64,000 nucleotides of DNA from the NCBI RefSeq assembly GCF_002024165.1, contig NZ_MWQN01000004.1:496001-560000 (forward strand), given 5' to 3'. Position numbers and translations under genes: made by a program. The notes below the pieces were generated by a model. That model ran no database searches. It was not told where the DNA came from and saw only the letters and a program-made list of their open reading frames with translations. Source of the stretch: Embleya scabrispora (GTDB taxonomy: Bacteria; Actinomycetota; Actinomycetes; Streptomycetales; Streptomycetaceae). This document shows positions 1,703 through 63,744 of this stretch, one piece after another. Each line of letters starts with the position of its first letter. The first letter of the stretch is position 1.

Positions 1703-1753
1703 GGTGCCTCCGTGAGGATGTGGTGGAGGTACGGACGGTGTTCCGGCCGGCGA

Positions 1754-3130
1754 TCAGCCGGCGGTCGGGGCGTCCCGGGTGGTGTCCTCGGCGTCCTGGC
1801 TCGCCTGGGCGTCCAGGAACAGTTCGATGACGGGTACGGGGGTGTCGGGGCGGCCGACCGGGATCTGAAGCGTCAGCGTTCCGGCGGGCTGGCCGCCCAT
1901 CTCGGTGTTGACCGCGGGCCGGTCCGGGTCGATGTGGACCGGGACGATCTCGGACGCGTCGCCCAGCAGTTGGGCGTAGCGTACCCGGCCGGCCAGGCCC
2001 GGCAGGTGCAGGTGCCGCGGCGGCCAGGCGAACAGGTGCACGTAGAGCCGGTCGCCGCGCTGGGTGTACCGGCATTCGGCGGGGGCGGTGTACGAGGACG
2101 GGCCGCAGCCGCGGATCGACCGCTCGTGCAGCCGCGTCCACCGGCCGATCTCGTCGAGGATGGCGGTGTCGCGCGGGTCGAGCGCGCCGCGGCCGTCGGG
2201 CCCCACGTTGAGCAGCAGGTTGCCGCCCTTGGACACTCCGTCGACGAGCATTCGGATCAGCAGGTCGGGGCTCTTGTGGTCCCGGTTGTCCCGGTCGTAG
2301 CCCCAACTGCCGTTGAGCGTCTGGCAGGCCTCCCACACCACGGGTCGCCCGTTCTCCGTCATGGGACCGGAGGGCTGGTACTGCTCGGGGGTGACGAAGT
2401 CGCCGGGAAGGCCGGTCCGGTCGTTGACGAGGACGTGCGGCTGCAGTTCGCGAATCGTCTTCAGGAGCTGCGGAGAGTCCCAGTCGTCGGGCCCCTTGCC
2501 GCCCCACCAGCTGCGTCCGACGTACGAGAAGTCGAAGAACAGGTAGTCGATCCGTCCGAACGAGGTCAGCAGTTCGCGGACCTGGCCGTGCAGATAGCGC
2601 TGGTACTCGCGGATGTCCCGGTCGGCGTTGGCGGCCTTGAACGCCTCGTCGTCGCGCTGCGGGTGGGTGCCGTCCACGGGGAAGGACGGGTGGTGCCAGT
2701 CGATCAGCGAGTAGTAGAGGCCGACCTTGAGCCCCTCGGCGCGGCACGCCTCGACGAACGGTCCCACCAGGTCGCGGCCGTACGGGGTGTTGGTGACCTT
2801 GTACTCGGTGAGGGCGCTGTCCCACAGGCAGAAGCCGTCGTGGTGCTTGGTGGTGAGCACGACATAGCGCATGCCCGCCGCCTTGGCCGCCCTGGCCCAC
2901 TCGGCGGGGTCGTAGCGGTCGGGGTCGAAGTGGTCGAAGTACACCTGGTACTGCTCGTCGGTCAGTTCCTCGCGGTTCTTCACCCACTCGTGCCGTGCGG
3001 CGAGGGAGTACAGACCCCAGTGCACGAACATGCCGAACCTGGCGGTGGTGAACCAGTTCGTGTCCGGGCCGGCCTCGGGTTCCGGGGTCGCGGACGGACG
3101 CGCCTGCGGGGTGTCAGCGCTCGCGGTCAT
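1754..3130 (-). CDS. GH29 alpha-L-fucosidase
   Basis: The 458-residue protein has the GH29 opening NWFTTARFGMFVHWG, then the TKHHDGFCLWDS block near residue 100 that is diagnostic of the family, and WAYDRDN-like and SKGGNLLLNVGPDG blocks near residues 275-310. The nucleophile Asp should lie in the strand YLFFDF near residue 200. GH29 enzymes remove terminal alpha-L-fucose from glycans by a retaining mechanism. No signal peptide is visible: the N-terminus is a Pro/Ala-rich linker, so the enzyme is probably intracellular and acts on imported oligosaccharides. It is 48 bp downstream of the inner permease gene and 51 bp upstream of the PL6 lyase gene, which places it in the same operon. Confidence 0.9.
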   Translation of the reverse strand: MTASADTPQARPSATPEPEAGPDTNWFTTARFGMFVHWGLYSLAARHEWVKNREELTDEQYQVYFDHFDPDRYDPAEWARAAKAAGMRYVVLTTKHHDGFCLWDSALTEYKVTNTPYGRDLVGPFVEACRAEGLKVGLYYSLIDWHHPSFPVDGTHPQRDDEAFKAANADRDIREYQRYLHGQVRELLTSFGRIDYLFFDFSYVGRSWWGGKGPDDWDSPQLLKTIRELQPHVLVNDRTGLPGDFVTPEQYQPSGPMTENGRPVVWEACQTLNGSWGYDRDNRDHKSPDLLIRMLVDGVSKGGNLLLNVGPDGRGALDPRDTAILDEIGRWTRLHERSIRGCGPSSYTAPAECRYTQRGDRLYVHLFAWPPRHLHLPGLAGRVRYAQLLGDASEIVPVHIDPDRPAVNTEMGGQPAGTLTLQIPVGRPDTPVPVIELFLDAQASQDAEDTTRDAPTAG

Positions 3131-3178
3131 GGGGTATCGCTCTTTCTCGTCTGGAGGTGGGGCCGACAGGTGTGCGGG

Positions 3179-4045
3179 TCAGCCCTTGAGTGCCCCGGAG
3201 GACAGGCCGCTGACGAAGGACCGCTGGAAGAACAGGAAGACGATCACCGAGGGCAGCAGCGCCAGCAGCGAGGCCGCCATCACCACGCCGGGGGTCACGG
3301 CCGGGTCGATCCGCAGGGTCCGCAGCGCCAGCGGCAGCGTGTACGAGGACGAGTCGGTGGCCACGAGCAGGGGCAGCAGGTACTGGTCCCAGATCATGGT
3401 GAAGCCGAAGACCCCGATCACGCCGAGCGCGGGTTTGCACATGGGCAGGATGATCTGGGCGAAGATCCGGAAGTCCCCGGCGCCGTCGATGCGCGCCGCC
3501 TCCTCCAGTTCGCGCGGCACGTCCTTCATGAACTCGGTCATCACGAGGATGGAGAACCCCCAGGCGCCCAGCGGAACGATCATTCCGGCGAGGGTGCCGA
3601 TGAGGTTGAAGTGCACGACCGGCAGGTCGGCGAGCACGACGGACAGCGGGATGGCCAGGATCTCCTCGGGCAGCATCAGCGTCGCCAGGATGGCGACGAA
3701 CGCCAGCGTCATTCCGGGGAAGACCTTCCTGGCCAGCGCGTATCCGGCCAGGACGGAGACGGACACCTGGAGCAGCAGCCCGAAGCCGACGACGAAGAAG
3801 GAGTTCAGCAGATACTTCAGCACCCCTTGGTCGAAGGCGATGTCGAAGTTCTCCAGGGTGAAGCCGGAGGGCACGATGCTCAGTTGCGTCGGGTCCTTGA
3901 TGTCGCCGAAGGCACCGACGAGCAGGGCCAGCAGCGGGCCCGCGAACATGGTCAGGACCAGGAGGTAGACGACGGCCTTGAGGATCCGTCCGCCGATGCT
4001 GCGGCTCTCGGTCAGGCCCAGCGCGGTTTCGGTCGACTCGCTCAC
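3179..4045 (-). CDS. Carbohydrate ABC transporter permease (MalG type)
   Basis: This is a 288-residue inner-membrane permease with about six membrane segments and the EAA loop near the C-terminal third (ELEEAARIDGAGDFRIFAQI), where the ATPase docks. I start it at the GTG at 4045, because a GGAGGGAGA ribosome site lies just upstream and the GTG overlaps the TGA of the preceding permease by 4 bp (GTGA). A longer open frame upstream lies in the other permease and is not used. It ends RSFVSGLSSGALKG, typical of the MalG/LacG group. No ATPase gene is present in this operon; CUT1 importers of streptomycetes commonly share one MsiK-type ATPase encoded elsewhere. Confidence 0.9.
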   Translation of the reverse strand: MSESTETALGLTESRSIGGRILKAVVYLLVLTMFAGPLLALLVGAFGDIKDPTQLSIVPSGFTLENFDIAFDQGVLKYLLNSFFVVGFGLLLQVSVSVLAGYALARKVFPGMTLAFVAILATLMLPEEILAIPLSVVLADLPVVHFNLIGTLAGMIVPLGAWGFSILVMTEFMKDVPRELEEAARIDGAGDFRIFAQIILPMCKPALGVIGVFGFTMIWDQYLLPLLVATDSSSYTLPLALRTLRIDPAVTPGVVMAASLLALLPSVIVFLFFQRSFVSGLSSGALKG

Positions 4046-5013
4046 TTGCTCTCCCTCCGCCGCAGCAGTTGGACGATGATGGTCAGGATCAGCGTCGCGG
4101 CGAACAGCAGGACCGCTCCCGCCGCACCGACACCGAGCCGGTTCTGCTCGAGTCCGAGCTTGTAGATGAGGGTCATGACGACCTCGGTGGAGCCGTTGGG
4201 CCCCCCGTTGGTCAGCAGGAACACCTCGGTGAACACCCGCAGTCCGCGGATCGCGGCGAGGATGAACAGGATCGAGAACACCGAACGCAGCCCGGGCACC
4301 GTCACGTGCCGCACCCGCTGCCACCGGGAGGCGCCGTCGACCCTGGCCGCCTCGTACAGACCGCGGTCCACACTCGTCAGACCGGCGAGGAAGATCATCA
4401 TGTCGTACGGAGCGCCGCGCCAGATGCCGGTGACCATGATGGACGCCATCGAGGTGTCGGGGTCGTTGATGAACCCCGAGGGGCCCATTCCCGCCAGGGC
4501 GAGAATGGAGTTGAGCATGCCGTCGCCGGTCGGGTGGTACATGATCCGCCACAGTTCGGCGACGACCGCCATCGGCACCACCACGGGAAGGAACGCGGCG
4601 GAGCGCACGAATCCCAGTCGACGGCTCTGCCCCTCCATCAGCAGCGCCAGTGCGAAGCCGAGCGCCATCGCGCCGAAGGTCTGGCCGACGGCGAGCACGA
4701 TCGTGTGCCACACGGCCTCGCGGAACCCGTGGGACTGCAACACCGTGCTGTAGTTGTCGGTGCCGACCCAGCGGTTTCCCAGGTAGGGCTGAACCTCCTG
4801 GAAGGACATGGTCACCGCGTTGACCATGGGGATGAACTTGAAGTAGAGCGAGAGGATCAGCGCCGGGGCGAGGAACAGCCACGGCGTCCACCACCGGCCT
4901 CCTCTGCGGCCGCGCACCCGGCGGTCGGCGGCCCCGCCACCCCGGCGGCCCACTTTTCGCGGGGCGGGGCCGGTCGCCGGCAGGGCGGCCGGATCCGCCT
5001 GGTCGAGGCTCAT
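4042..5013 (-). CDS. Carbohydrate ABC transporter permease (MalF/UgpA type)
   Basis: The 323-residue permease has a basic cytoplasmic N-terminus (RKVGRRGGG, RGRRGGRWW), a first helix WLFLAPALILSLYF, five further membrane segments, and the EAA-type loop LYEAARVDGASRWQRVRHVTV near residue 235. It forms the heterodimeric channel with the adjacent permease. The start at 5013 overlaps the stop of the binding-protein gene as ATGA, so translation is probably coupled. Together with the lipoprotein upstream it makes a CUT1-type oligosaccharide importer feeding the fucosidase and lyase products into the cell. Confidence 0.9.
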   Translation of the reverse strand: MSLDQADPAALPATGPAPRKVGRRGGGAADRRVRGRRGGRWWTPWLFLAPALILSLYFKFIPMVNAVTMSFQEVQPYLGNRWVGTDNYSTVLQSHGFREAVWHTIVLAVGQTFGAMALGFALALLMEGQSRRLGFVRSAAFLPVVVPMAVVAELWRIMYHPTGDGMLNSILALAGMGPSGFINDPDTSMASIMVTGIWRGAPYDMMIFLAGLTSVDRGLYEAARVDGASRWQRVRHVTVPGLRSVFSILFILAAIRGLRVFTEVFLLTNGGPNGSTEVVMTLIYKLGLEQNRLGVGAAGAVLLFAATLILTIIVQLLRRRESK

Positions 5014-51741: not shown

Positions 51742-52728
51742 GTGGAGTACGAGTCGGCCGTCCCCTGGGAGGGCTTCCTGGCGGAGCCGATCGGTGGTCC
51801 CGCGGCGGCGGGTGTTCTGGTGTTGTCCGGTTCGAGCGGACGGATCGAGCGCGAGCGGTGTCGGCTCTTCGCCCGCGCCGGGGCGACCGCGATGTCGATC
51901 CGGTGGTTCGGCGGGCCCGGGCAGCCGTCGGGCATTCGCGAGGTCGCGCTGGAGACCTTCGTCGCCGCGATCGCGTTGCTGCGTGAGCGCGGCTCGGAGC
52001 GCGTCGGTGTTCTCGGCGTGTCCAAGGGCGCCGAGGCGGCGCTGCTGGTGTCCACCGTCTCGGACTGCGCCGACGCCGTGATCGCGCTCGCCCCGACGTC
52101 GGTCGTCTGGGCCGCTGTCGGCTCCGGCCGGAACCGTCGCGAGCGCCCCTGTCGCTCCGGTTGGACCTGGCAGGGGCGGCCGCTGCCCTTCGTCCCCTAC
52201 GACGAATCCTGGCAGCCGACGGAGCCGGAAGGCGCGCCGGTGTCCGTGCTCGGCTGGTACGAACGCAGCCTGGCGGCACACCCGGACCGGCTCGCCGCCG
52301 CGACCATCCCCGTGGACAGGACCACAGCCGACCTGGTCCTGATCGCGGGCGGCGCGGACCGCATGTGGCCCTCGACGCGTTTCGCCCACGAACTCGCGGA
52401 CCGCTACGCCGCAACCGGCCGCGAAGCAGCCCTCATCTCCCGACCCGACGCGGGCCACCGAACCGTATTCCCGGGCGAGGTGCCTCCACCCCCATCCACC
52501 CGCTTCGACCACGGCGGCACCCCCGAAGCGGACGCCGAACTCGGCGCAGCCGCCTGGCCGACCGTGCGGGCCACCATCCTCGGCAGCCGACCACCGGCCG
52601 GGAAAGCCGGCACCAAGCGGATTGGTCGATCTCCGTCACACAGTCAGTGGTGTGGTGTCGGGGAAGTGCGGGCGAGGCGGGGGAATTCGGTGGTTTGGTC
52701 GCCGAGGGTGAGTAGGCGGTACGTGTAG
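51742..52728 (+). CDS. Acyl-CoA thioester hydrolase/BAAT C-terminal-type alpha/beta hydrolase
   Basis: The protein has about 328 residues; the GTG at 51742 gives VEYESAVPWEGFLAEPI, the usual start for this group, though TTG at 51727 is possible. The fold shows AAGVLVLSGSSGRIERERCR, the nucleophile elbow VGVLGVSKGAEAALL (Ser near 95), LVLIAGGADRMWPS (Asp) and SRPDAGHRTVFPG (His). Members hydrolyse acyl-CoA or related esters. The last 45 residues or so are not family-like and overlap the 3' end of the converging aldolase gene by 85 bp, so the native stop may have been lost. Confidence 0.8.
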   Translation: MEYESAVPWEGFLAEPIGGPAAAGVLVLSGSSGRIERERCRLFARAGATAMSIRWFGGPGQPSGIREVALETFVAAIALLRERGSERVGVLGVSKGAEAALLVSTVSDCADAVIALAPTSVVWAAVGSGRNRRERPCRSGWTWQGRPLPFVPYDESWQPTEPEGAPVSVLGWYERSLAAHPDRLAAATIPVDRTTADLVLIAGGADRMWPSTRFAHELADRYAATGREAALISRPDAGHRTVFPGEVPPPPSTRFDHGGTPEADAELGAAAWPTVRATILGSRPPAGKAGTKRIGRSPSHSQWCGVGEVRARRGNSVVWSPRVSRRYV

Positions 52729-53275
52729 CGGGCCGCGCTTTCCAGGTTTTGGGCCTTGCGTAGCGCGTCCTGGGGGATGTGCCCACCGTGGAGCAGCCGT
52801 GGTGGGCCAGGATCACGCAGTCGCTGTGGCGGCTTGCGGTCGCTGTGGCCTCGGCCAGTTCCGGGGAGCCGTTGGGGTGGAACGGCACACGGCTGATCAC
52901 GGGGGCGTACGCGATGTGGTCGAGGGTGAGTTGGCGGATGCGCTCGCCCATGGCGTCGACGAGCACCGCGTATTCGGGGTGTACGTGCACCACCGCCTCG
53001 ACGTCGGGTCGGGCCAAGTAGGTGTGTTGGTGCAGGCGCCACTCGCTGGACGGCGGCGCCGAACCCGTGTCCGTGCGCGGCTCGCCGTCGAGGCGCACGA
53101 TCGCGAAGTCCCGTTCGGTCAGCCGGTCGAGCCGACTGCCGGCAGCCGTCACCGCGAAGGTGTCGGTGCCGGGCAGCCGGGCGGACAGGTTGCCGCCGCT
53201 CGCCAGGACGAGGCCGCTGTCCACGCACTGCCGGCCGGCGTCGACCAGGGCCGCGAGGATGTGCTCCGCCGTCAT
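52644..53275 (-). CDS. Class II aldolase (sugar-1-phosphate aldolase) with apparent 3' frameshift
   Basis: From the ATG at 53275, overlapping the kinase stop as ATGA, the protein shows the class II aldolase/adducin fold: GLVLASGGNLSARLPGTD (phosphate loop), EWRLHQHTYLARPDVEAVVH with VHVHPEY (zinc His pair), and VILAHHGCSTVG (third zinc His). Beyond that the original frame becomes nonsense, but the next frame continues naturally as HIPQDALRKAQNLESAARYT and ends at 52644. One base lost from the CCC at 52782-52784 explains it. In context it should split 5-deoxy- or 5-methylthio-ribulose 1-phosphate into DHAP and an aldehyde. Without a fix the product would lose its last helices and run to 52433. 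Confidence 0.8.
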
Positions 53276-54492
53276 CGGGGCCCGCGTCCCTCGCCGCCGA
53301 CCACCAGGGCGGACGCGGCTTCGGCGACGCGCGCCGGGGTCAGCGTGGCGCGGTCCACGAGCAGGGTCCGGGACAGCCGCAACATCGCGGCGCCGACGAC
53401 GGCGTACCGATCGTCGTCCAGCGTCTCCAGGTCGCTCACCTTGGCCAATCCCACGGTACGGCGGGCCGCCTCGCAGCCCGCGAAGCCGAACGCGTCCGCG
53501 AGGATGGCCGGCAGCCGCCCGTCGAGGTAGGAGTCGGGGTAGCGCTCCGGCGCGCGCCGCCCCGGCCAGTGCCCGCGCAACCGCGCGGTGAACCCGTCCC
53601 AGCTCGTCGCGAGCGTCCCGAACAGCGCCTCCGCGCGGTCCTGTTCGCCCAGCGCGGCGGCCCGGGCGCCCGCGAAGAGCAGGTTGGCCCACAACATGCC
53701 GAGGTCGAACCCGATCGGCCCGTAGCACGCGAACTCGGGGTCGAACGCCCGCACCGACAGGTCGCCGTCCCGCGCGTCGCCGCGAACGAAGACGCTGCCG
53801 GTGTGCAGGTCGCCGTGCAGCAGGGTTTCCTGCGTGGTGAGGAACGTGTGTTTCATCGCCATCGCGGCCGCCGACCACGCCCGGTCGGCCCGCAGTTCGG
53901 CGTAGGGCGCGTCGAGGGCCGGGCGTACCGAGTTGCGTTCGGCGCCCAGGAAGGGCTCGGTGAACACGAGATCCTCGGTGATCTCGCAGAGTTCCGGATT
54001 GATCGCGGCGGCGGCGCGGGTTCGGAACTCGGCCTCGGTGAGGCTGTGGACCGAGGTGCCGAACGCGACGTCGGCGAGGTATTCGGCGAGTCGCTCGGCG
54101 ACGCCCTCGTGTGCTCCCCCGGCATTGAGCCGGGTGCGGAACACCTCGTGATCGGACAGGTCTTCGAGCGCGAGCACGTACCCCTCGGGGTCGAAGTCGA
54201 GGAGACCGCAGACGTGTTCGGACAGTGCGCCGTGGATCCGCAGGGCGGCGGCCTCCCGCACCGCACGCTGTTCGGTCATCGGCCATTCCGGGCCGACGAG
54301 GCGCACGTACGGCAGCGCCTGCTTCAGCACCAGCCGTCGGCCCGCGGCGTCGGCGCAGACGAAGACGAGGTTGAGGTTGCCGTCGCCGACCTCGGCGACG
54401 GTGAGCGTCGTCGGGTCGATCAGCTCGCGCAGCGTGGCGCGTGCGGCGATGTAGGCGGGGACCTCGGCGGAGGTCAGGATCCGGTCAGCCAT
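53272..54492 (-). CDS. mtnK: S-methyl-5-thioribose (or 5-deoxyribose) kinase
   Basis: The 406-residue protein has the MtnK aminoglycoside-phosphotransferase-like fold: a glycine-poor nucleotide loop AEVGDGNLNLVFVCAD, LVLKQALPYVRLVG with the ATP-binding Lys, catalytic loop ETLLHGDLHTGSVFV (Asp), and metal-binding AFDPEFACYGPIGFDLGML. It phosphorylates C1 of methylthioribose; related enzymes also take 5-deoxyribose. Its gene lies between the sugar permease (8-bp overlap) and the aldolase (ATGA overlap), so the importer, kinase and aldolase are made together. Confidence 0.88.
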   Translation of the reverse strand: MADRILTSAEVPAYIAARATLRELIDPTTLTVAEVGDGNLNLVFVCADAAGRRLVLKQALPYVRLVGPEWPMTEQRAVREAAALRIHGALSEHVCGLLDFDPEGYVLALEDLSDHEVFRTRLNAGGAHEGVAERLAEYLADVAFGTSVHSLTEAEFRTRAAAAINPELCEITEDLVFTEPFLGAERNSVRPALDAPYAELRADRAWSAAAMAMKHTFLTTQETLLHGDLHTGSVFVRGDARDGDLSVRAFDPEFACYGPIGFDLGMLWANLLFAGARAAALGEQDRAEALFGTLATSWDGFTARLRGHWPGRRAPERYPDSYLDGRLPAILADAFGFAGCEAARRTVGLAKVSDLETLDDDRYAVVGAAMLRLSRTLLVDRATLTPARVAEAASALVVGGEGRGPR

Positions 54493-55612
54493 GGGTGCGC
54501 TCCGCGATCGCCGGTGCGGTGGTGGGGACTTCGGGGCCGCTGCCGGGGTTCGGGTCGGCGGAGGCGGGTGTCGCCGCCGCGGCCCGGCGGCGCCGGCCGC
54601 GGCGCAGCGAGAAGGACATCAGCAGGGCGAAGATGAGCACGAGCCCCTTGATCAAGTCCTGCGTGTAGTAGGGCAGTCCGCGCATGGTGAGGCCCTGGAG
54701 GATCAGCCCGATGAACACCGCGCCGACGAACGTGCCGAGCGCGTTGGGCTTCTTGGCGCCCAGAACCGCGTAGCCGACCAGGGTCATGGCGACCGCGTCG
54801 AGCAGCGACGAGTCGCCCGCGGTGACGTCGCCCTGCCGCAGACGCGAGGCGAGGATGATGCCGGCGGTGGCGGCGAGTACGCCGGAGATGGCGTAGGCCG
54901 CGAACTTGTAGCGCTTGACCCGGGTGCCGGCCAGGCGCGCGGCCTCCTCGTTGCCGCCGACGGCGTAGAACACCCGCCCGTGGCGGGTGCGTTGCAGGAA
55001 GACCCACAGCAGCAGGGCGATGACGAGGAAGAGGTAGACGGAGTAGGGGATGCCGAAGAGCTTGTCGCCGTCGATGGCGGTGAAGTCGTCGGTGAACCTG
55101 CCCTTGACCACGGTGCCGTCGCCGAGCTTCATCCCGGTGGTCAGGGTCTGGCCGTCGACGAGCCAGCGTTTGAGGCCCTGGATGGTGAACATGGTGCCGA
55201 GGGTGGCGAGCAGCGGCGGGATGTTCAGGAAGACGACGAGGGTGGCATTGACGCATCCGACGAGCAGGCCGACCAGGAGGCAGATCACGATCGCGCTCGG
55301 GCCGGTGAGTTCGTAGTGGATCATCGCCTCGGCGGCCACCGTGACCGACAGGCCGGTGACCGCGCCGACCGACAGGTCGAGGTCGCCGACGATGGCGGTC
55401 AGCGTCATCCCGAGCGCGGCGATCGCCGCGACCGCCTGGATCTGCAGGATCGACACCGTGTTGTCCCAGGTGCCGAAGCCCGTCGTGGTGGCGGAGAACG
55501 CGATGTAGAGCGTGACGCCCACGAGGATGATCCCGTAGCGCACCACGAAGTCGCCGAGCGCGGCCGGAAGTGGGGTCCGCCGCGCGGTCGATGTCGAGTC
55601 GCGCAGATTCAT
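54485..55612 (-). CDS. Ribose-type ABC transporter permease (RbsC-like)
   Basis: The 375-residue permease has about nine or ten helices with the CUT2 signatures AIAALGMTLTAIVGDLDLSV (near residue 60) and GRVFYAVGGNEEAARLAGTR (near 215). It ends in a basic then Pro/Ala-rich cytoplasmic tail. The ATG at 55612 overlaps the ATPase stop as ATGA. It forms a dimeric channel for a pentose-like substrate. Linkage to MtnA and MtnK suggests methylthioribose or 5-deoxyribose. Confidence 0.9.
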   Translation of the reverse strand: MNLRDSTSTARRTPLPAALGDFVVRYGIILVGVTLYIAFSATTTGFGTWDNTVSILQIQAVAAIAALGMTLTAIVGDLDLSVGAVTGLSVTVAAEAMIHYELTGPSAIVICLLVGLLVGCVNATLVVFLNIPPLLATLGTMFTIQGLKRWLVDGQTLTTGMKLGDGTVVKGRFTDDFTAIDGDKLFGIPYSVYLFLVIALLLWVFLQRTRHGRVFYAVGGNEEAARLAGTRVKRYKFAAYAISGVLAATAGIILASRLRQGDVTAGDSSLLDAVAMTLVGYAVLGAKKPNALGTFVGAVFIGLILQGLTMRGLPYYTQDLIKGLVLIFALLMSFSLRRGRRRRAAAATPASADPNPGSGPEVPTTAPAIAERTHG

Positions 55613-57318
55613 GCGTGGCTTTCCTTTCCGGCCGCGCTCGGCGCTGCCTCCGAGGGCGGGAGTGACGGGGTACGGCGTACGCTCATCGCCGTGATGAGGC
55701 GTTCGCGGCCGGCGTCGCCCAGGGCGAGGTCGGCGGTGATCCGGCCCCGGTCGAGCACCACGATGCGGTCGCCGACCTCGAGGGCCTCGTCCACGTCGGA
55801 GGTGGCGACCAAAACCGCGGCGGTCGCGGCGAGTTCGCGCACGGTGGCGCCGATGTCGTGGCGGGCGTTGATGTCGACGCCGCGGAACGGTTCGTCGAGC
55901 AGCAGTACCCGCGGTTCGCCGAGCAGCCAGCGGCCGATGACCACCTTCTGCTGGTTTCCCCCGGACAGGGTCTCGATCGGCGCGTCGGGTCCGGCGGCCA
56001 CCACGCCGAGGTCGCGCATCATCGTCGCGGTGGCCCGGCGTTCGGCGCCGGTGCGCATCAGGGTGCCCCGGGTGAACATGCCGGCGAAGGGCAGGGTGAG
56101 TTGGGAGCGGATCGGCCAGCCGGGGATGATCGCCTGTTCGTGGCGGGATTCGGGGACGAGGTAGACGCCGCGTTTGATCGCGGCGCCCGGATACCCCGGG
56201 TCGAAGGGGCGACCGTCCAGGGTTCGCCGGCCCGCGCCGATCGACGTGGCACCGAAGATCCATTCGAGCAGTTCGGTCTTGCCGCTGCCGAGCAGACCGA
56301 GCAGCACGGTGACATGGCCGCGGTGCAGTTCGAGGTCGAGGGGGTGCGGGTCGTCCTCTCGCAGGCGAACTCCTTCGAGCGACAATACCGGCTCTCCCGG
56401 CGGGAGTTCGGCGCGCTCGGACTCGGCGGGGGTGCGGTCGAACAGGGCGGTCAGTACGGTCGTCCAGTCGAAGCCCCGCCCGGGTATGGGCTCGAACTCG
56501 CCCTGCATGGCCCCGTCGCGCAGGACGCCGACGCGGTCGCACAGTTGGTCGATCTCGGCGAGTTTGTGGGTGACGAACAGGACGGTCATGCCGTCCGCGG
56601 CGAGCGCGCGCACCAGGTCGAACAGGCGCGCGCTCTCCTCCGCGGACAACGCCGAGGTGGGTTCGTCCAGGATCAGCAGCCTCGGCTTGCGGGACAACGC
56701 CCGCGCCAGGACCAGGAGTTGCCGCTCGGAGACGCCCACGTCGCGCACCGGCGAGCGCAACGTCTGCCGGTCGAAGCGCAGGCCCAGGGTGGCCGCGACC
56801 TCGACGGCCTGGGCCTCGGTCCGGCGCCGGCTGAACAGGATGGGCGAGGATCGGTCGCCGAGCCGGTCCAGGGCGAGGTTCTCCGCGACGGTCATGTCGA
56901 GGATCACCCCGTCGTTGGGGTTCTGATGCACGGTGCCGATGCCGCTGCGCTGGGCGGCGAGCGGGTCGGGGAAGACCACCACCTCGCCGTCGCGCAGGAT
57001 TTCGCCGCCGTCCGGGGACTCCGCGCCCGAAAGGATCTTGATGAGCGTGGACTTGCCCGCGCCGTTGGCGCCCATCAGGCCGTAGATGTCCCCCGCGCCG
57101 ATACGGAGGCCGACCCCGCGCAGCACCCGGTTCGGGCCGTAGCTCTTCGAGATGTCCCGCACTTCGAGGACGGTGTCCCGGCTGCGGTCTCGGCGGTCTT
57201 CGCGTCGGTCGTTTCCGTCCTCGCGTCGGTCGTTTCGCTCGTCGCGTCGGTCGTCGCGTCGATCGTCCTGTGCGTCGAAACGCCCGTCGTCGTGTCCGTC
57301 GTCCTGTCGGGGCCGCAC
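55609..57318 (-). CDS. Ribose-type ABC transporter ATP-binding protein with charged N-terminal extension
   Basis: The 569-residue protein has two ABC domains, as in RbsA. The first has Walker A GLMGANGAGKST and LLILDEPTSALSAEE; the second has GLLGSGKTELL and signature ETLSGGNQQKVVIGRW with LLLDEPFRGVDI. In the first domain the signature reads VGVSERQLLVLA, an altered form usual for the group. It starts at a GTG after AAGGAGG. The first 48 residues are almost only Asp, Arg, Glu and Asn in short repeats (DDRRDERNDRRED), an addition absent from typical RbsA proteins. It powers uptake with the adjacent permease and binding protein. Confidence 0.9.
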   Translation of the reverse strand: MRPRQDDGHDDGRFDAQDDRRDDRRDERNDRREDGNDRREDRRDRSRDTVLEVRDISKSYGPNRVLRGVGLRIGAGDIYGLMGANGAGKSTLIKILSGAESPDGGEILRDGEVVVFPDPLAAQRSGIGTVHQNPNDGVILDMTVAENLALDRLGDRSSPILFSRRRTEAQAVEVAATLGLRFDRQTLRSPVRDVGVSERQLLVLARALSRKPRLLILDEPTSALSAEESARLFDLVRALAADGMTVLFVTHKLAEIDQLCDRVGVLRDGAMQGEFEPIPGRGFDWTTVLTALFDRTPAESERAELPPGEPVLSLEGVRLREDDPHPLDLELHRGHVTVLLGLLGSGKTELLEWIFGATSIGAGRRTLDGRPFDPGYPGAAIKRGVYLVPESRHEQAIIPGWPIRSQLTLPFAGMFTRGTLMRTGAERRATATMMRDLGVVAAGPDAPIETLSGGNQQKVVIGRWLLGEPRVLLLDEPFRGVDINARHDIGATVRELAATAAVLVATSDVDEALEVGDRIVVLDRGRITADLALGDAGRERLITAMSVRRTPSLPPSEAAPSAAGKESHA

Positions 57319-57352
57319 GGGTGCCTCCTTTCCGGTTTCGACCGAGGGTGGG

Positions 57353-58495
57353 TCAGGCGCCCGGCCGGATCGGGGTGATCCACGGCGCCCCGAGCACGTC
57401 CGGGGTGGCCAGTTCGGGCAGCGCCTTGCGCAGCGTGTCCATGTTCGTCACCCCGTTCGCCTTGAGCGTGTCCTGGGTGATCAAGGTCGCGGGGATGGTC
57501 ATCTTCTGCGGCAGGTCGACCTTCCCGGCCGCCGCGATCGAGGCCCGGGCCACGACCGCGCCCACGTTCGCCGGGTCGGTGGCGGCGGTGGCCCGCCACG
57601 GACTGCCGGCCTCGGTCATCAGCTGGATGTCGGCGGTGGAGACGTCCACGCCGTAGACCTTCACCTTGTTCGTCATGCCGTTCTGGCGCAGCGCGATCAG
57701 CGTGCCCTTGGCCAGTTCGTCGTAGGCCGCGAACGCGAGCGTGGTGTCCGGGGCGGCGGACAGCGCCGCGGTGCCCTCGGTCGCGGTGTCGGCGGCCACC
57801 GACTCGGTGTACTTGCCGAAGCGCGCCTTCTGGGTGAACGTCGGGTTGTCCTTGAGGAACTGCTGGTACACCTTGTCGCGGGAGTCGAGCGGCGCGATGC
57901 CGGACACGTTGACGTAGGCGAGCTTGCCGCCCGAGGGGTTGTCCTGCTTCATGTAGCCGAGGATCTTGTCGGCGATCGAGGCGTCGTCCTGCGAGATGTA
58001 GGTGGCCTTGCAGTTGGAGATCGCCACGTCGTAGACGACGACCGGGATCCCCTTGGCGATCGCGTCGTCGATCTTGGGGTTGACCGAGTCGGCGAGGCCG
58101 TGGTCCACGATGATCACGTCGGGCTTGGCGTTGATCGCCTGGTCGAGTTGGCTGACCTGGGTCGCGTTGTTGCCGCGCGCGTCGTAGACGGTGACGCTGC
58201 CACCGGCGGCCTTGATCTGCTTGGTCGCGCCGTCGCCCCACTGCTCGAAGTAGTCGCCGACGCCGGATTGGCGGACGAGCGCCACCTTGAAGTCGCCCTT
58301 CAGCCCGGTGGGCTTGGCCTCGGGCAGTTTGCGCGCGTTGTCGACGGTGCGCTGCGTCGCGCAGTTCCCCGCGCCGCCGGCGGCGCCGGACGCGCCGGGC
58401 TCCGCCTTGTTGTCGTCGGTGCTCTGGGAGCATGCGGCGAGCAGGGACATTCCGACGGCGGCGGCCCCGATCACGCGAATGGCCTTGGATCTCAT
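57353..58495 (-). CDS. Sugar-binding lipoprotein of the ribose-type importer
   Basis: The 380-residue product starts MRSKAIRVIGAAAVGMSLLA with a lipobox LLAAC. The mature part is a two-lobed Peripla_BP_4 protein: KVALVRQSGVGDYFEQWGDG, INAKPDVIIVDHGLADSV, GIPVVVYDVAI, and GVDVSTADIQLMTEAGSPWR. This layout binds free pentoses or related small ligands. The gene lies 10 bp after mtnA and 34 bp before the ATPase gene, so it is the second gene of the salvage operon. Its ligand is probably 5-methylthioribose or 5-deoxyribose (inference from neighbours). Confidence 0.88.
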   Translation of the reverse strand: MRSKAIRVIGAAAVGMSLLAACSQSTDDNKAEPGASGAAGGAGNCATQRTVDNARKLPEAKPTGLKGDFKVALVRQSGVGDYFEQWGDGATKQIKAAGGSVTVYDARGNNATQVSQLDQAINAKPDVIIVDHGLADSVNPKIDDAIAKGIPVVVYDVAISNCKATYISQDDASIADKILGYMKQDNPSGGKLAYVNVSGIAPLDSRDKVYQQFLKDNPTFTQKARFGKYTESVAADTATEGTAALSAAPDTTLAFAAYDELAKGTLIALRQNGMTNKVKVYGVDVSTADIQLMTEAGSPWRATAATDPANVGAVVARASIAAAGKVDLPQKMTIPATLITQDTLKANGVTNMDTLRKALPELATPDVLGAPWITPIRPGA

Positions 58496-58505
58496 GGTGT
58501 TCTCC

Positions 58506-59561
58506 TCACTCGGTGGTCTCGGCCGCGACCGGCCGGGCCGCAGGGGTGTCGCCCGCGGCGACGTCGATGACGCGCGCGTCGGTGACGATCGCCGTGATCA
58601 GATCGGCGGGTGTCACATCGAAGGCGGGGTTGAGGGCGGTGGCGTCGGGCGGGGTCACCCGTACACCGCGGAACAGGCGGACCTCGGCGCCGCCGCGATC
58701 CTCGATCTCGATCGCGTCGCCGTTCGGGGTGTCCCGGTCGATGGTGGTCTCGGGAGCGACCACGAGGAACGGCACCCCGGCCCGGGCCGCGGCCAAGGCC
58801 ACCGCGAACGTGCCGATCTTGTTCGCGGTGTCGCCGTTGGCGGCGATCCGGTCGGCCCCCACGAGGACCGCGTCGATGCCGCCTCGGGCCAGCGTGATCG
58901 CCGCGGCCGAGTCCACGATCACGTCGTACGCCGCGCCCATGCGGCCCAGTTCCCACGCGGTCAGGCGCGCACCCTGGAGCAGCGGGCGCGTCTCGCACGC
59001 GATGGCGCGCACGAGTCGGCCCTCGCGGTGCAGCTTCGCCACCACGCCGAGCGCCGTGCCGTGCTCGACGGCGGCGAGCGCGCCGGTGTTGCAAATGGTC
59101 AGTACGGTCAGCGCGGCCCGGTCCGGAATCAGCCGCGCCAGCGCGTCGGTACCACGTTCGGCCATCGCGACGCAGGCCGCGATGTCCGCGTCCCGTACCC
59201 GCAGCGCGGCGTCCAGGGCGGCGAGCGGGCCGCCCTGTTCCAAGGCGGCGAGCGCGGTGTCCACGCCGTAGGCGAGGTTGACCGCCGTGGGCCGGGCCTC
59301 GCGCAGTTCGGCGATCGCCTGCCGGGCCTGGTCGGCCGGCAGGCTCTGCGCGGCGAGCGCGACGCCCAGGGCGCCGGCCACGCCGAGCGCGGGGGCTCCG
59401 CGTACCGCCAGTCGTTGGATCGCGTCCACCAGGACGTCGAGGTCGTGGATGTCGAGTTCGACGAGGCTGTCGGGCAGCAGGGTTTGGTCGACCAGCCTGA
59501 TGAATCCCCTGCCGGGTTCCCGCTCGGCGTCGTCGGCGGGAATCCAGTCGATCGTGCGCAT
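58506..59561 (-). CDS. mtnA: Methylthioribose-1-phosphate isomerase (MtnA-type)
   Basis: The protein has about 351 residues; I start it at the ATG at 59561 (MRTIDWIP), which matches family N-termini and has GGGAGA upstream. It shows LVDQTLLPDSLVELDIHD, AVRGAPALGVAGALGV, the catalytic Cys in LTICNTGALAAVEHGTALGV, and catalytic Asp in VLVGADRIAANGDTANKIGT. It converts the aldose 1-phosphate to the ketose 1-phosphate; homologues accept both 5-methylthio- and 5-deoxyribose 1-phosphate. As first gene of a six-gene unit with a kinase, an importer and an aldolase, it points to a DHAP-shunt rather than the classical methionine salvage, since no mtnB/C/D genes are present here. Confidence 0.9.
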   Translation of the reverse strand: MRTIDWIPADDAEREPGRGFIRLVDQTLLPDSLVELDIHDLDVLVDAIQRLAVRGAPALGVAGALGVALAAQSLPADQARQAIAELREARPTAVNLAYGVDTALAALEQGGPLAALDAALRVRDADIAACVAMAERGTDALARLIPDRAALTVLTICNTGALAAVEHGTALGVVAKLHREGRLVRAIACETRPLLQGARLTAWELGRMGAAYDVIVDSAAAITLARGGIDAVLVGADRIAANGDTANKIGTFAVALAAARAGVPFLVVAPETTIDRDTPNGDAIEIEDRGGAEVRLFRGVRVTPPDATALNPAFDVTPADLITAIVTDARVIDVAAGDTPAARPVAAETTE

Positions 59562-59639
59562 CCGCCGCGTCTCCCTCTCTACGCGGGACGACCCGTCGAT
59601 GCCTCCGGGGGTCGTCCTCATGATCCGAGTGCGCCGAAG

Positions 59640-59650
59640 TTGTCAGACAA
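59640..59650. promoter_or_regulatory. GntR operator TTGTC-A-GACAA at the mtnA/gntR promoters
   Basis: A perfect 11-bp palindrome lies 17 bp before the regulator start (59667) and 79 bp upstream of mtnA, between the divergent genes. The same palindrome with a T centre recurs at 62600-62610 before the aldolase-dehydrogenase gene, which marks it as the likely binding site of the GntR protein. Confidence 0.75.
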
Positions 59651-59666
59651 TTCGAAGCGTGTCAAG

Positions 59667-60398
59667 ATGTCCGACATGGCGACCCAGACACGGCGGCCGC
59701 TGGCCGACGACATCGTTCGGGAACTCAAGATCGAGATCCGCGACGGCGTCCATCCCGCGGGGGCGCGGTTGCCGACCGAGGCCGATCTGTGCAGGCGGTT
59801 CGGGGTCTCGCGGGCCACGGTGCGCACCGCGCTCAAGGAACTCGACGTGCTCGGCCTGATCCGCACGCAGCAGGGCGCGGGCACGTTCGTGCGCACCCGC
59901 CCCGCGGTACGCGACGGCCTGGAGCGCATGGGCTCGATCACCGAGTCGATCCGGCGCAGCGGCAAGGAACCCGGGCACGAGTACGGGCGGCGCACGCTCC
60001 GCCAGGTGCTGCCCGACGAGGCCGAACGGATGGGTGTTCCGTCCGACACCGAGGCGCTGGAACTGCGCCGCCGGGTGACCGCCGACGGCGACGTGGTCGC
60101 CTACTCCTACGACGTGATCCCGCGCGGCCTGCTGCCGGCCGCGTTCGATCCGGAGGAGCTGAGCGGGTCCTTGTTCGCCTATTTCGAAACCGAGTTGGGC
60201 ATCCATCCGACGCTCGGCCTCGCGAAGGTGCACGCGGTCTCGTCGGCGCACATCGCGTGGGGGCCGGACGCGGCCAAGCACCGACTGTTCGTGCTGCTCG
60301 ACCAGTTGCACTACGACGACGACCACCGGCTGCTCGCGTACTGCAAGACGTACTTCGTCGAGGGCTCCTACGAGTTCCAGTTGGTACGCACGGCCTGA
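59667..60398 (+). CDS. GntR-family regulator with UTRA domain
   Basis: The 243-residue protein has a GntR winged helix (DIVRELKIEIRDGVHPAGAR, FGVSRATVRTALKEL, QGAGTFVRTR) and a UTRA (HutC-type) effector domain from about residue 95 (ERMGSITESIRRSG; LELRRRVTADGDVVAYSYDV; HRLLAYCKTYFVEGSYEFQL). It is divergent from mtnA and very likely represses the salvage genes until a sugar phosphate binds UTRA. ATG at 59667 or 59676 could be the start; neither has a strong ribosome site, so the message may be leaderless or weakly translated. Confidence 0.88.
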   Translation: MSDMATQTRRPLADDIVRELKIEIRDGVHPAGARLPTEADLCRRFGVSRATVRTALKELDVLGLIRTQQGAGTFVRTRPAVRDGLERMGSITESIRRSGKEPGHEYGRRTLRQVLPDEAERMGVPSDTEALELRRRVTADGDVVAYSYDVIPRGLLPAAFDPEELSGSLFAYFETELGIHPTLGLAKVHAVSSAHIAWGPDAAKHRLFVLLDQLHYDDDHRLLAYCKTYFVEGSYEFQLVRTA

Positions 60399-60435
60399 CC
60401 GCGCGGCGCCCCCGGCCCCACCGCGCAAGCCCGCA

Positions 60436-60503
60436 GGCGCTTGGCGCTTGGCGCTTGGCGCCTGGCGCCTGGCGCTTGGCGCTTGGCGCTTGGCGCTTGG
60501 CGC
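60436..60503. repeat. 7-bp tandem repeat (GGCGCTT)n
   Basis: Nine full copies plus a partial copy of GGCGCTT (two read GGCGCCT) fill the space between two converging genes where a terminator would be expected. No other array of this unit is visible in the window. It is likely to vary in copy number. Confidence 0.85.
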
Positions 60504-60590
60504 ACTGCAACGAGCGGGCACGCGCGGGGAGTTCCGCGCGTACCCGCCCCAACCACCCCTACCGTGCCCGTTCCCGGGCCCGGCAGACGC

Positions 60591-62552
60591 TCACACGACC
60601 CGTTCGCTGCCCCCGTCCACGGGGATCTGCGCGCCCGTGGTCGCGGCGAAGTCGTCGGAGCACAGCCGGGTGACCGCCTGCGCCACGGTGGCGCTGCTCA
60701 CCTCGGTACGCAGCAGGTTGCGCCGCTTGTACTCCTCGACCGTCATGCCGTAGTCGGCGGCGCGCTCGGCCAGGATCTCGTCGGTCCACAGGCCGGTGTC
60801 GAAGACCGCGTCGGGGTGCACCACGTTGACCCTGATGCCGTCCGCGGCCCATTCCAGCGCGGCCACTCTGGAAAGCTGCGTGACGGCCGCCTTGGACGCC
60901 GAGTACGCGGCCGCGCCCGGTCCGGGCGCGGGCACGTTGCGGGACGCGATCACCACCACCCGGCCGCCGCGCGGCGCGAGCGCGAGCAGCGGGTGGGCCT
61001 CGCGGAACAGTACGGCGACGGAGTCCACGTTGACCGCCATCGAGGTGCGCCACGCGTCCGCGTCCAGCGCCGAGATCGGCGCACTCGCCTTGAACACGCC
61101 CGCGCTCGCGACCACCATGTCGAGGCCGCCGAACCGCTCGACGGCGGCCCGCAGCGCGCTCTCCACGGCGGCGCGGTCGGTGACGTCCACGACCTGCCCG
61201 AGGTATCCGGCCCCGGGGAGGGTCTGCGTGACGCCGGCGTCGAGGTCCCAGCCGACGACGCTCGCGCCGGCCGCCGCCAGGGCGCGTGCGCACGCCCGGC
61301 CGATGCCCGACGCGGCCCCGGTGACCAGCGCGACCTCGCCGGCGAACACCTGCGGCGCCCCGGCGCGGCGCAGCTTGGCCTGCTCCAGGTCCCAGTATTC
61401 GAGGTCGAAGATGTGCTCTTCGGACGCGGGCCGGTAGCCGCCGAGGCGTTCGCCGACGGTGATCACGTCCATCGTGTGCCGGTAGATGTCGCGGGCGACG
61501 TCGGTGTCCTTCGCGCTGCCGCCGACCGTGAGCATGCCCAGGTCGGGGTCCAGGACGATCCTCGGTGCCGGGTCCAGCGGCTTCAACTCGGTGCCGCGAC
61601 GCCGGTGATGGCGTTCGAAGTACTCCCGGTAGCGGTCGGCGTAGCCGGCCACGTCGCGGCCCACCAGCGGCACCCGCTTGGTGCGGATGACGTGGTCGGG
61701 GGTTGCCGGGCCCCTGGTCGCGACCTCGGCCAGGTCGGCCCGTGCGACGAACCTGGCCGTGTCCTCGTCGGCGTGCCGGGCGACGATCATCGGCCGGCCC
61801 GCGGCCTCGCTGATCTCCCGGCGCAGCAGGGCGAGTTCGACGCTCGTCGGGCGGGCCGGCGCGCGGGCCGGCGCGGGCGCGGCGTCGGCGTGTTCGGCCA
61901 GTCGGCGCTCGGCGCGGGTGATCAGGTCCAGGTGGCGTTCGTACGCCTCGCGGGTGTCGTCGCCGAACGTGAACAGGCCGTGGTTGAGCAGGACGAGGCC
62001 GATGGTCCCGGCGTGTGCCTGGTCGCGCCACACCTCGGCGCAGCGCACGGCGAGGTCGAAGCCGGGCATCACGTACGGGACGATCGCGACGTCGTCGCCG
62101 AACACGTCCCGGATGACCGCCTCGCCGTCGGCGAGGTTGGTCAGGGTCAGGATCGCGTCGGCGTGGCTGTGCTGTACCGCGCGGTGCGGCAACATCGCGT
62201 GCAGCAGCGCCTCGACGGAGGGGTCGGGGGCGGCGGCGTCGAGCAGCGCGCAGCGCAGTTCGTTGACCATCTGGGCATCGCTGAGCGCGGTGACGGTGAG
62301 CAGTTCGCGCAGTCGGGCCAGGCGCAGCGGGGCGAATCCCTCGGGGCCGATCGAGGCCAGGTCGTGGCCGCTGCCCTTGACGTAGAGCACCTCGACCGGC
62401 GCGCCGGTGACATCGGCGATCTCGGCCTTGACGGAGGTGTTGCCGCCGCCGTGCAGCACGAGTGTGGGTTCGCCGCCGATCAGCCGTGAACCGTAGGCGC
62501 ACTGCCCCAGGGGACCGTCGCCGGCGTCCGCGTCGGACCATCGATTGCGCAT
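60591..62552 (-). CDS. Bifunctional class II aldolase/short-chain dehydrogenase
   Basis: The 653-residue fusion has an N-terminal class II aldolase domain (LVLHGGGNTSVKAEI; HSHADAILTL zinc His pair; VLLNHGLFTFG third His) and a C-terminal SDR domain from about residue 400 (EVALVTGAASGIGRACARAL; YSASKAAVTQL with catalytic Tyr and Lys; GAQIPVDGGSERVV). Homologues split rhamnulose 1-phosphate and oxidise the released lactaldehyde. No rhamnose kinase or isomerase is present, while MtnA, MtnK and the same GntR operator are, so this enzyme may process the 5-deoxy sugar phosphate or its aldehyde product. It carries its own promoter region with the operator 48 bp upstream. Confidence 0.85.
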   Translation of the reverse strand: MRNRWSDADAGDGPLGQCAYGSRLIGGEPTLVLHGGGNTSVKAEIADVTGAPVEVLYVKGSGHDLASIGPEGFAPLRLARLRELLTVTALSDAQMVNELRCALLDAAAPDPSVEALLHAMLPHRAVQHSHADAILTLTNLADGEAVIRDVFGDDVAIVPYVMPGFDLAVRCAEVWRDQAHAGTIGLVLLNHGLFTFGDDTREAYERHLDLITRAERRLAEHADAAPAPARAPARPTSVELALLRREISEAAGRPMIVARHADEDTARFVARADLAEVATRGPATPDHVIRTKRVPLVGRDVAGYADRYREYFERHHRRRGTELKPLDPAPRIVLDPDLGMLTVGGSAKDTDVARDIYRHTMDVITVGERLGGYRPASEEHIFDLEYWDLEQAKLRRAGAPQVFAGEVALVTGAASGIGRACARALAAAGASVVGWDLDAGVTQTLPGAGYLGQVVDVTDRAAVESALRAAVERFGGLDMVVASAGVFKASAPISALDADAWRTSMAVNVDSVAVLFREAHPLLALAPRGGRVVVIASRNVPAPGPGAAAYSASKAAVTQLSRVAALEWAADGIRVNVVHPDAVFDTGLWTDEILAERAADYGMTVEEYKRRNLLRTEVSSATVAQAVTRLCSDDFAATTGAQIPVDGGSERVV

Positions 62553-62599: not shown

Positions 62600-62610
62600 T
62601 TGTCTGACAA
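62600..62610. promoter_or_regulatory. GntR operator TTGTC-T-GACAA upstream of the aldolase-dehydrogenase
   Basis: This perfect 11-bp palindrome is 48 bp upstream of the start at 62552 and has the same arms as the site at 59640-59650. It connects this gene to the MtnA operon as one regulon. Confidence 0.75.
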
Positions 62611-62721: not shown

Positions 62722-63744
62722 TCAGACGCGGAGCAGGGCCTTGATGGCGCGGCGTTCGTCCATGGCGCGGTATGCCTCGGCGGCCCGGTCGAGGGGCAGC
62801 GTGAGGTCGAAGACCTTGCCGGGGTCGATGCGGCCGTTCCAGATCAGGTCGATCAGCTCCGGCAGGTATTGCCGTACCGGGGCCGGACCGCCGTGCAGGT
62901 GCACGTGGGAGAAGAACAGGTGCCGACCGTCGAGGGACACGTCGTGGGAGACCCCGACGCAGCCGATGTGTCCTCCCGGCCGCGTCGCGCCGATGGCCTG
63001 CATCATCGACTCCTGGGTACCGACCGCCTCGATCACGGAGTGCGCGCCGAGGCCGTCGGTCGACTCCCGGATGCGCGCGACGCCCTCGTCGCCGCGTTCG
63101 GTGACGATGTCGGTCGCCCCGTACTCGATGGCGAGCTTCTGTCGGGACTCGTGGCGGCTCATCGCGATGATCCGCTCGGCGCCGAGTTGCTTCGCGGCGA
63201 GCACCGCCATCAACCCGACCGCGCCGTCGCCGACCACCGCGACCGTCCGGCCCGGCCCGGCCTGCGCGGCGACCGCGCCGAACCAGCCGGTGCCGAGCAC
63301 GTCGGACGCCGCCAGCAGGCTCGGAACCAGCGTGTCGTCGGGCATGCCGGGGGTGGCCACCAAAGTGCCGTCCGCCAGCGGCACGCGCAGCCGCTCCGCC
63401 TGGGAGCCGAGCGCGCCGAGCGATTCGCGGTGGACGCACGAGGACTGGTAGCCCGCGCGGCAGATCTCGCAGGTGTTGTCCGAGGCGAAGAACGACCCCA
63501 CCACGAACTGCCCCGGCCGAACCGAGGTGACCGCGCCGCCGACCTCCTCGACGACGCCGGCGTACTCGTGCCCCATCGGGGCCGGGCCGTCGACGGTCTC
63601 GAGTCCGCGATACGGCCACAGGTCCGACCCGCATACGCACGTAGCCGCCAGTCGGATCACCGCATCGGTCGGGCGGACGATCGCCGGCTCCTCGCGCTCT
63701 TCGACCCGGACGTCGCCGGGGGCATGCATCACGACACCACGCAT
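62722..63744 (-). CDS. Zinc-dependent alcohol dehydrogenase (MDR)
   Basis: The 340-residue enzyme has the catalytic zinc ligands Cys in ATCVCGSDLWPY and His in PMGHEYAGVVEEV, and a nucleotide motif VAVVGDGAVGLMAVLAAKQL. The structural-zinc loop is modified: CEICRAGYQSSC has three Cys where the usual loop has four. AAGGAG precedes the ATG at 63744. It acts on an alcohol or aldehyde with NAD(P). Its gene lies 169 bp upstream of the aldolase-dehydrogenase and reads the same way; it might reduce the aldehyde released by the aldolases, but the operator lies downstream of it, so it may be an independent gene. Confidence 0.85.
   Translation of the reverse strand: MRGVVMHAPGDVRVEEREEPAIVRPTDAVIRLAATCVCGSDLWPYRGLETVDGPAPMGHEYAGVVEEVGGAVTSVRPGQFVVGSFFASDNTCEICRAGYQSSCVHRESLGALGSQAERLRVPLADGTLVATPGMPDDTLVPSLLAASDVLGTGWFGAVAAQAGPGRTVAVVGDGAVGLMAVLAAKQLGAERIIAMSRHESRQKLAIEYGATDIVTERGDEGVARIRESTDGLGAHSVIEAVGTQESMMQAIGATRPGGHIGCVGVSHDVSLDGRHLFFSHVHLHGGPAPVRQYLPELIDLIWNGRIDPGKVFDLTLPLDRAAEAYRAMDERRAIKALLRV

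Follow-up and report, generated by a model that had tools for sequence, protein, structure and literature searches.

The window analyzed here, a stretch of 64,000 nucleotides of Embleya scabrispora (C4:496001-560000; host genome G000, 11.0 Mb in eight contigs), contains a gene cluster that most likely imports 5-methylthioribose (MTR) or 5-deoxyribose and probably degrades the sugar with a fused class II aldolase-short-chain dehydrogenase. Loci are labeled L and genomes G, each with a number. Six minus-strand genes form one tight unit (52644-59621). It starts with mtnA (58506-59621), encoding MTR-1-phosphate isomerase (TIGR00512, 341 bits; cut-off, 279), followed by genes for a binding lipoprotein of the MTR type (57353-58495; PF13407), an ATP-binding cassette (ABC) ATPase of the RbsA type (55609-57318; PF00005), an ABC permease of the ribose type (54485-55612; PF02653, 149 bits), the MTR/5-deoxyribose kinase MtnK (53272-54492; TIGR01767, 362 bits; cut-off, 275), and a small FucA/DrdA-like class II aldolase (52644-53275; PF00596, 124 bits over the first 165 amino acids), of which the open reading frame (ORF) is broken in the assembly. 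By ORF coordinates, mtnA and the binding protein gene are 10 bp apart and the latter and the ATPase gene 34 bp, followed by overlaps of 4, 8, and 4 bases. Divergent from mtnA lies a gene for a GntR/UTRA regulator on the plus strand (59667-60398; PF00392, 65 bits; PF07702, 60 bits), and beyond it, on the minus strand, the gene for the fused enzyme of 653 amino acids (60591-62552; NF006196, 977 bits; cut-off, 831). Two palindromes without strand, both candidate GntR operators, complete the layout: TTGTCAGACAA in the gap between gntR and mtnA (59640-59650) and TTGTCTGACAA 47 bases before the start codon of the fused gene (62600-62610). The same cluster is present in G020, of the same genus, with genes 92.7 to 100% identical.

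A sequence-only reading had taken all of 52644-62552 for one minus-strand unit with overlaps or short gaps throughout. The tight spacing is borne out for the six genes (gaps of at most 34 bp), but the unit ends at 59621, and the plus-strand regulator and the separate fused gene also lie inside the range. The genes named there for MtnA, binding protein, ATPase, permease, and MtnK are all confirmed by the family models given above; the class II aldolase is present from 53275, but its frame is broken. The regulator, the fused enzyme, and the frame break had gone unmentioned.

Importer and source of the sugar

Among the sequences of the Protein Data Bank (PDB), the closest match of the binding protein was 4ry8 (211 bits; E = 2.5e-61), titled 5-methylthioribose transporter solute binding protein TLET_1677, followed by 5ulb. 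The best chain named ribose-binding, 4wt7, reached 57 bits, and chains of D-ribose-binding proteins at most 35 bits. A structure model (14 aligned sequences; mean predicted local distance difference test [pLDDT] score, 84) also placed 4ry8 first by fold, with ribose-binding proteins ranking after it at ~20% identity. The importer genes are linked to mtnK and mtnA in one unit and this linkage is kept in relatives, where the ATPase gene, too, accompanies mtnK. Importer homologues adjoin mtnK both in loci with a GntR regulator and aldolases and in loci with mtnC or mtnD, including those of Streptomyces and others; synteny of the importer with MtnA and MtnK among actinomycetes, a point raised by the sequence-only reading, thus extends to actinobacterial mtnC/mtnD loci. 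MTR is proposed as the substrate because it is the simplest one common to both types of loci, and the cluster most likely imports MTR (or 5-deoxyribose).

The sequence-only reading had further noted that mtnB, mtnC, and mtnD are missing. The cluster indeed has no mtnC or mtnD, but both are found elsewhere in the genome, on contig C1 (for mtnB, no genome-wide search was made). C1 encodes an enzyme of the family of 5′-methylthioadenosine (MTA) phosphorylase (428 bits; cut-off, 306), a second MtnA (397 bits; cut-off, 279), MtnC (217 bits; cut-off, 128), and the acireductone dioxygenase MtnD (109 bits; cut-off, 27). In contrast, none of the five PF01048 proteins of the genome reached the cut-off of 169 bits for MTA/S-adenosylhomocysteine nucleosidase; two scored 28.8 and 26.6 bits and the other three had no match at E ≤ 1e-15. 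MTA phosphorylase gives the sugar phosphate directly and no free MTR. With salvage based on a phosphorylase and no nucleosidase over the cut-off, the kinase is therefore left without an evident intracellular supply of free MTR, which, therefore, would come mostly from outside. Import of exogenous sugar, as the sequence-only reading had supposed, is well supported by the kinase and isomerase scores, the likeness to 4ry8, the homologues in mtnC/mtnD loci, and the lack of a nucleosidase over the cut-off.

On C1, the locus L184 (C1:6019000-6037500) holds mtnD, mtnC, an amidohydrolase-like frame, and the second mtnA within ~12 kb, together with a uridine-phosphorylase-like enzyme (153 bits, below the cut-off) and, as judged by eye, a nucleoside-type ABC importer. 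Its role is perhaps to take up and salvage intact nucleosides, for instance MTA.

Distribution of mtnK loci

MtnK over the cut-off was found in 9 of 297 genomes of the family Streptomycetaceae and in 2 of 396 of the phylum, the host included in both; the phylum samples, in which genomes recur, were taken as one set. When six aligned MtnK proteins were used to scan named genomes, at least 594 stretches matched, at least 573 of them encoding a relative. The best 80 and L057 make up the 81 loci compared (L057 and L068 to L147); L058 and L063, being duplicates of L068 and L074, were not counted. Fifteen of the 81 have a GntR homologue (>100 bits) together with importer and mtnK and are called GntR type. 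The 30 rows labeled B are of the mtnC/mtnD type: 29 of them combine a binding-protein match and mtnK with mtnC and/or mtnD, and L125 is without importer. A weak class II aldolase match in most B loci is probably mtnB. In the MtnK tree, the 18 rows labeled A need three changes and the 30 B rows two; the downstream module seems largely to follow the kinase lineage, with more than one switch.

Other gene combinations occur as well. L075, L076, L083, and L088 are mtnK-importer loci in which a short RuBisCO-like protein and a split transketolase are also encoded, and L078 has the transketolase only; here the ketose phosphate may be put to yet another use. A TTGTCCTACAA site precedes the split transketolase gene of L075 and L076. 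In L086 (11717-13424), a locus of the Propionibacteriaceae type, and L087 (11512-13325), matches to dhaK and dhaL (dihydroxyacetone kinase) directly follow mtnK, with dhaK of L086 over the cut-off. Three loci of Microbacteriaceae (L110, L116, and L120) have importer, mtnK, mtnA, and a RuBisCO-like protein and no mtnC/mtnD match in the stretch examined (a short contig for L116), possibly pointing to salvage via a RuBisCO-like enzyme.

The fused aldolase/dehydrogenase

The fused protein scored 464 bits with TIGR02632, the model of the rhamnulose-phosphate aldolase/alcohol dehydrogenase fusion (RhaD_aldol-ADH), which is below its cut-off of 568. In nine aligned fusions, E114, H128, H130, and H191 of the aldolase domain and D436, S537, Y550, and K554 of the short-chain dehydrogenase/reductase (SDR) domain are invariant; we take the former to be the metal site and the latter to serve the SDR reaction. 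The structure model (mean pLDDT, 85) matched the class II aldolase domain 3m4r with a template modeling (TM) score of 0.93, normalized by the target, as well as SDR alcohol dehydrogenases, among them 2-keto-3-deoxyfuconate 4-dehydrogenase at rank 44. A tree of 41 fusions groups eight of the mtnK-linked fusions in a clade separate from RhaEW (100/100; stem, 1.21) and the mtnK-linked fusions of L075, L076, L078, and L088 in another; the tree, from which the partial L073 was excluded, carries a warning of long branches meeting. Fusions thus seem to have entered mtnK clusters twice. The gene studied here adjoins gntR, mtnA, and mtnK, not a rhamnose locus, and the genome holds a second, RhaEW-like fusion (39% identity) beside rhamnose isomerase.

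Matches to the fusion of >200 bits were found in 10 of the 15 GntR-type loci (L073 being partial) and in none of the 30 mtnC/mtnD-type loci; L078 and L083, which have a fusion and no GntR match of >100 bits, are outside this count. In L082, L111, and L113, a small aldolase gene beside gntR takes the place of the fusion and has a palindrome site of the same type. As judged from gene order, the fusion with the importer operon is a new variant in which the fusion occupies the small-aldolase place of other loci. In the phylum sample, the fused clade looked exclusive to mtnK (both genomes with >700 bits); the class sample described below contradicted this, and the idea was dropped. Three of the four class-sample genomes other than the host have the fusion in other surroundings. 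In L201 (8474-15569), the fusion lies beside genes of the pyruvate dehydrogenase type (E1 beta and E2), a PfkB kinase gene, and an FBA-type aldolase gene; the surroundings in L202 and L203 match those of L201, in which the families were scanned, by eye only. A Zn-dependent dehydrogenase gene upstream of the fused gene in the window (62722-63744) is also present in G020, where the stretch is partly covered; it had no match in Wenjunlia vitaminophila (L068) and was dropped as a part of the cluster.

The frame of the small aldolase shifts at a homopolymer after the HHGC motif, and no read-through was found in the assembly. The homologous gene of G020 is intact, and the break is the only net frame-breaking length difference in the cluster genes relative to G020 in the aligned stretches (~70 bp at the 5′ end of the ATPase gene did not align). 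The sequence is compatible with an assembly error as well as a true mutation. The intact homologue fits DrdA (6btd) and Escherichia coli FucA alike, at 62 bits each, and a high small-aldolase score (456 bits) was found only in L057, of the same genus, among the loci compared. The ratio of nonsynonymous to synonymous substitution rates relative to G020 was 0.24 for the first 165 codons of the small aldolase, 0.12 for the fusion, and 0.04 for the binding protein. Given the weaker constraint on the small aldolase and its broken frame in the assembly, the main aldolase of this genome is probably the fused enzyme. The sequence-only reading had named the class II aldolase as the third enzyme of the dihydroxyacetone phosphate (DHAP) shunt; its family assignment stands, but with the broken frame this role is less secure than was stated.

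Palindromes at both promoter regions

The exact palindrome TTGTCNGACAA, a motif defined from the window alone, occurs twice in the window, at the promoter regions of the fused gene and of the importer-kinase operon. In 300 simulated first-order windows, it occurred 0.017 times on average and in none twice; the whole 11-Mb genome has four places, two of them in the window. The other two (L193 and L194) showed no evident link, with a 2-isopropylmalate-synthase-like frame and FecCD-type permease frames nearby as judged by eye. Elsewhere, the exact motif precedes the fused gene and/or mtnA in L057, L068, L069, L074, and L081 and the small aldolase and mtnA in L111 and L113; in L117 it is off target. 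The relaxed motif TTGTNNNACAA was widened after sites with one or two mismatches had been seen in L075, L076, L082, L086, L087, and L088, and its count is therefore partly fitted: a site lies near a relevant gene in 14 of the 15 GntR-type loci, which hold 22 sites in total, all in such positions. Of the other 66 loci, eight have sites, 10 in all, of which one, in L126, comes within range of a named gene; none of the 30 mtnC/mtnD-type loci has a site so placed. The palindromes are candidate GntR operators, and we infer that the fused gene and the importer operon form one regulon.

A proposed catabolic set for exogenous MTR

As the likely function of the cluster, we propose a GntR-controlled catabolic set for exogenous MTR, and probably also for 5-deoxyribose, that would be an oxidative version of the DHAP shunt. 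According to its binding-protein family, the ABC importer would bring in the free sugar. MtnK and MtnA, assigned at the family level by curated cut-offs, would then produce the sugar 1-phosphate and the ketose 1-phosphate, and the fusion, alone or with the small aldolase, would split the ketose phosphate into DHAP and a two-carbon fragment; its dehydrogenase domain would accept the hydride with NAD+. Overall, 5-deoxyribose would yield DHAP and acetate, and MTR would yield DHAP and methylthioacetate. GntR would repress both transcription units via TTGTCNGACAA until the sugar phosphate appears.

Several observations weigh against this proposal. Identity of the binding protein to 4ry8 is just 38%, and the proven substrate of RhaEW-type enzymes is rhamnulose phosphate (PMC3870299). 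The fusion was found (E ≤ 1e-130) in five of the 394 genomes of a class sample, and the four besides the host were without mtnK over the cut-off. Rhamnulose phosphate differs in C4 stereochemistry. The GntR-type loci L069 and L072 have no aldolase match in the stretch examined, and L072 is also without a TTGTNNNACAA site. With one mismatch allowed, two or more matches turned up in 8 of 100 shuffled windows, the real window still having two, and a backwards control pattern was as frequent in the genome as the palindrome (four places each). Position and not number is therefore the evidence that the palindrome provides.

The class sample would also suit an ordinary DHAP shunt, in which no aldolase but the small DrdA/FucA-like one matters, its broken frame is an artifact of sequencing, and the fusion serves another sugar. 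The small aldolase gene overlaps mtnK by 4 bases, its intact homologue fits DrdA about as well as FucA, and a one-base homopolymer difference is a common assembly error. However, one palindrome stands at both promoter regions, the Wenjunlia cluster has the fusion and no small-aldolase match, the genome has the other, RhaEW-like copy beside rhamnose isomerase, and the small aldolase scores highly in the same genus only; we regard an ordinary shunt as unlikely. The true substrate could instead be another 5-substituted ribose or a deoxypentose, e.g., 5-halo- or 5-amino-deoxyribose, released in the turnover of antibiotics or nucleosides. This would be in line with the rarity of the cluster and with the promiscuity described for MtnK and DrdA-type enzymes in the 2018 paper on 5-deoxyribose (PMC6079011), but the binding-protein family points to MTR, which makes another sugar quite improbable. 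Imported MTR could finally enter methionine salvage proper, passing from MtnK and MtnA to the chromosomal salvage genes for its sulfur, with the aldolases playing a minor part. The mtnC, mtnD, and second mtnA genes of the genome and the 29 B loci are consistent with this, but the salvage genes lie on another contig with an mtnA of their own, and a duplicate mtnA beside aldolases and a shared palindrome point to a separate catabolic fate; methionine salvage as the purpose of the cluster is thus very unlikely.

A possible link to LsrF

The oxidative DHAP shunt proposed here could also run with oxidation as its first step. LsrF, the 3-hydroxy-2,4-pentadione-5-phosphate thiolase of autoinducer 2 (AI-2) breakdown, shares a locus with the fusion in seven loci, five of them with mtnK. 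It exceeds the cut-off of 297 bits in L086 (458), L204 (467), L074 of G402 (473), and L227 of G476 (490) and was recognized in L073, L081, and L087 only by phmmer with the L086 protein. LsrF adjoins the fusion or is one gene off in L074, L081, L086, L087, and L227; two genes lie between them in L204 and ~7 kb in L073, where a palindrome site precedes lsrF. In the phylum sample, 39 genomes have an LsrF-family match over the cut-off, and the two best, G476 and G402, both have it beside the fusion; in G533, the only one of the other 37 examined, no fusion was found within 16 kb. A ribulose-phosphate 3-epimerase-like gene adjoins lsrF in L073 and L227, and in the latter (667-4692) LsrF, this epimerase-like protein, and the fusion are encoded in a three-gene run. 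On one strand, L204 (8901-19501) encodes the fusion and LsrF together with an ABC importer, a GlpD-type dehydrogenase, and an FGGY kinase; its genome, the fourth of those in the class sample besides the host, is without mtnK over the cut-off. A loss of the aldolase site in fusions sharing a locus with LsrF was considered and rejected: the sites are present in L074, L081, L086, and L087 (L073 is without that part).

By our own chemistry, 4-oxidized 5-deoxyribulose 1-phosphate has the formula of 3-hydroxy-2,4-pentadione 5-phosphate, after which NCBIfam names LsrF, the configuration at C3 not being considered. An oxidation-first route is therefore plausible, although we hold it only tentatively and find it somewhat doubtful: the dehydrogenase domain of the fusion would oxidize C4, and LsrF, where present, would cut the product into DHAP and acetyl coenzyme A (acetyl-CoA) or, with MTR, methylthioacetyl-CoA; otherwise, the aldolase domain would hydrolyze it to DHAP and acetate. 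The route would avoid toxic acetaldehyde. Since the host genome is without LsrF (no match to NF006081), the LsrF branch is not directly applicable here. RhaEW itself may work oxidation-first, which would explain why it formed no DHAP without NAD+ (PMC3870299).

Relation to known systems

In kind, the core of our proposal is already in print. Four clusters drawn in the 2018 paper have sugar transporters, and such bacteria may salvage exogenous 5-deoxyribose (PMC6079011); growth of E. coli on exogenous 5′-deoxynucleosides and derivatives is reported (PMC6079011, PMC12632272), and an ABC importer of MTR, mtrACB, was predicted for gammaproteobacteria and Bacillus cereus (PMC3228920, citing Rodionov 2004). 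The DHAP shunts of Bacillus thuringiensis (DrdK-DrdI-DrdA) and E. coli ATCC 25922 (mtnK-mtnA-ald2-permease) are alike in an operon of kinase, isomerase, and class II aldolase, with a transporter in some. Here, however, an MTR-type ABC importer replaces the one permease, a GntR/UTRA regulator comes with a palindrome, a second aldolase is fused to a dehydrogenase, and the small aldolase is frame-broken. With MtrACB and 4ry8, the cluster shares a binding protein, ATPase, and permease linked to mtnK or mtnA, and homologues of all three importer parts were found in loci of Raoultella (L140), Klebsiella (L147), and Planomicrobium (L131). MtrACB goes with methionine salvage, whereas here the importer goes with aldolases and a GntR regulator.

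RhaEW, the bifunctional rhamnulose-phosphate aldolase/lactaldehyde dehydrogenase, has the same two-domain order and catalytic motifs as the fusion. It cleaves rhamnulose phosphate and oxidizes lactaldehyde; it is said to be always in rha loci, and its authors regard the dehydrogenase as essential for the aldolase (PMC3870299). The fusion, in contrast, belongs to a separate clade, scores below the TIGR02632 cut-off, and lies outside a rha locus. In the literature searched, of which coverage was partial, we found neither a fusion and an importer operon behind one palindrome nor a paper on LsrF and 5-deoxyribose together, and none among the matches listed had RhaEW together with mtnK or drdA. On this comparison of loci, the new features here are the fusion in the small-aldolase place and the palindrome that several genera have at the two promoter regions.

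5-Deoxyribose and MTR derive from by-products of radical S-adenosylmethionine (SAM) enzymes and polyamine synthesis. If oxidation does come first, a waste sugar of radical-SAM enzymes would be broken down through the same intermediate as the quorum signal AI-2. The fusion, repeatedly paired with LsrF, makes it possible to test directly whether a common diketone phosphate joins the DHAP shunt to AI-2 breakdown. The consumers of 5-deoxyribose and MTR in soil are little known, and a dedicated importer with a regulon of its own would show that both sugars are real growth substrates exchanged between organisms.

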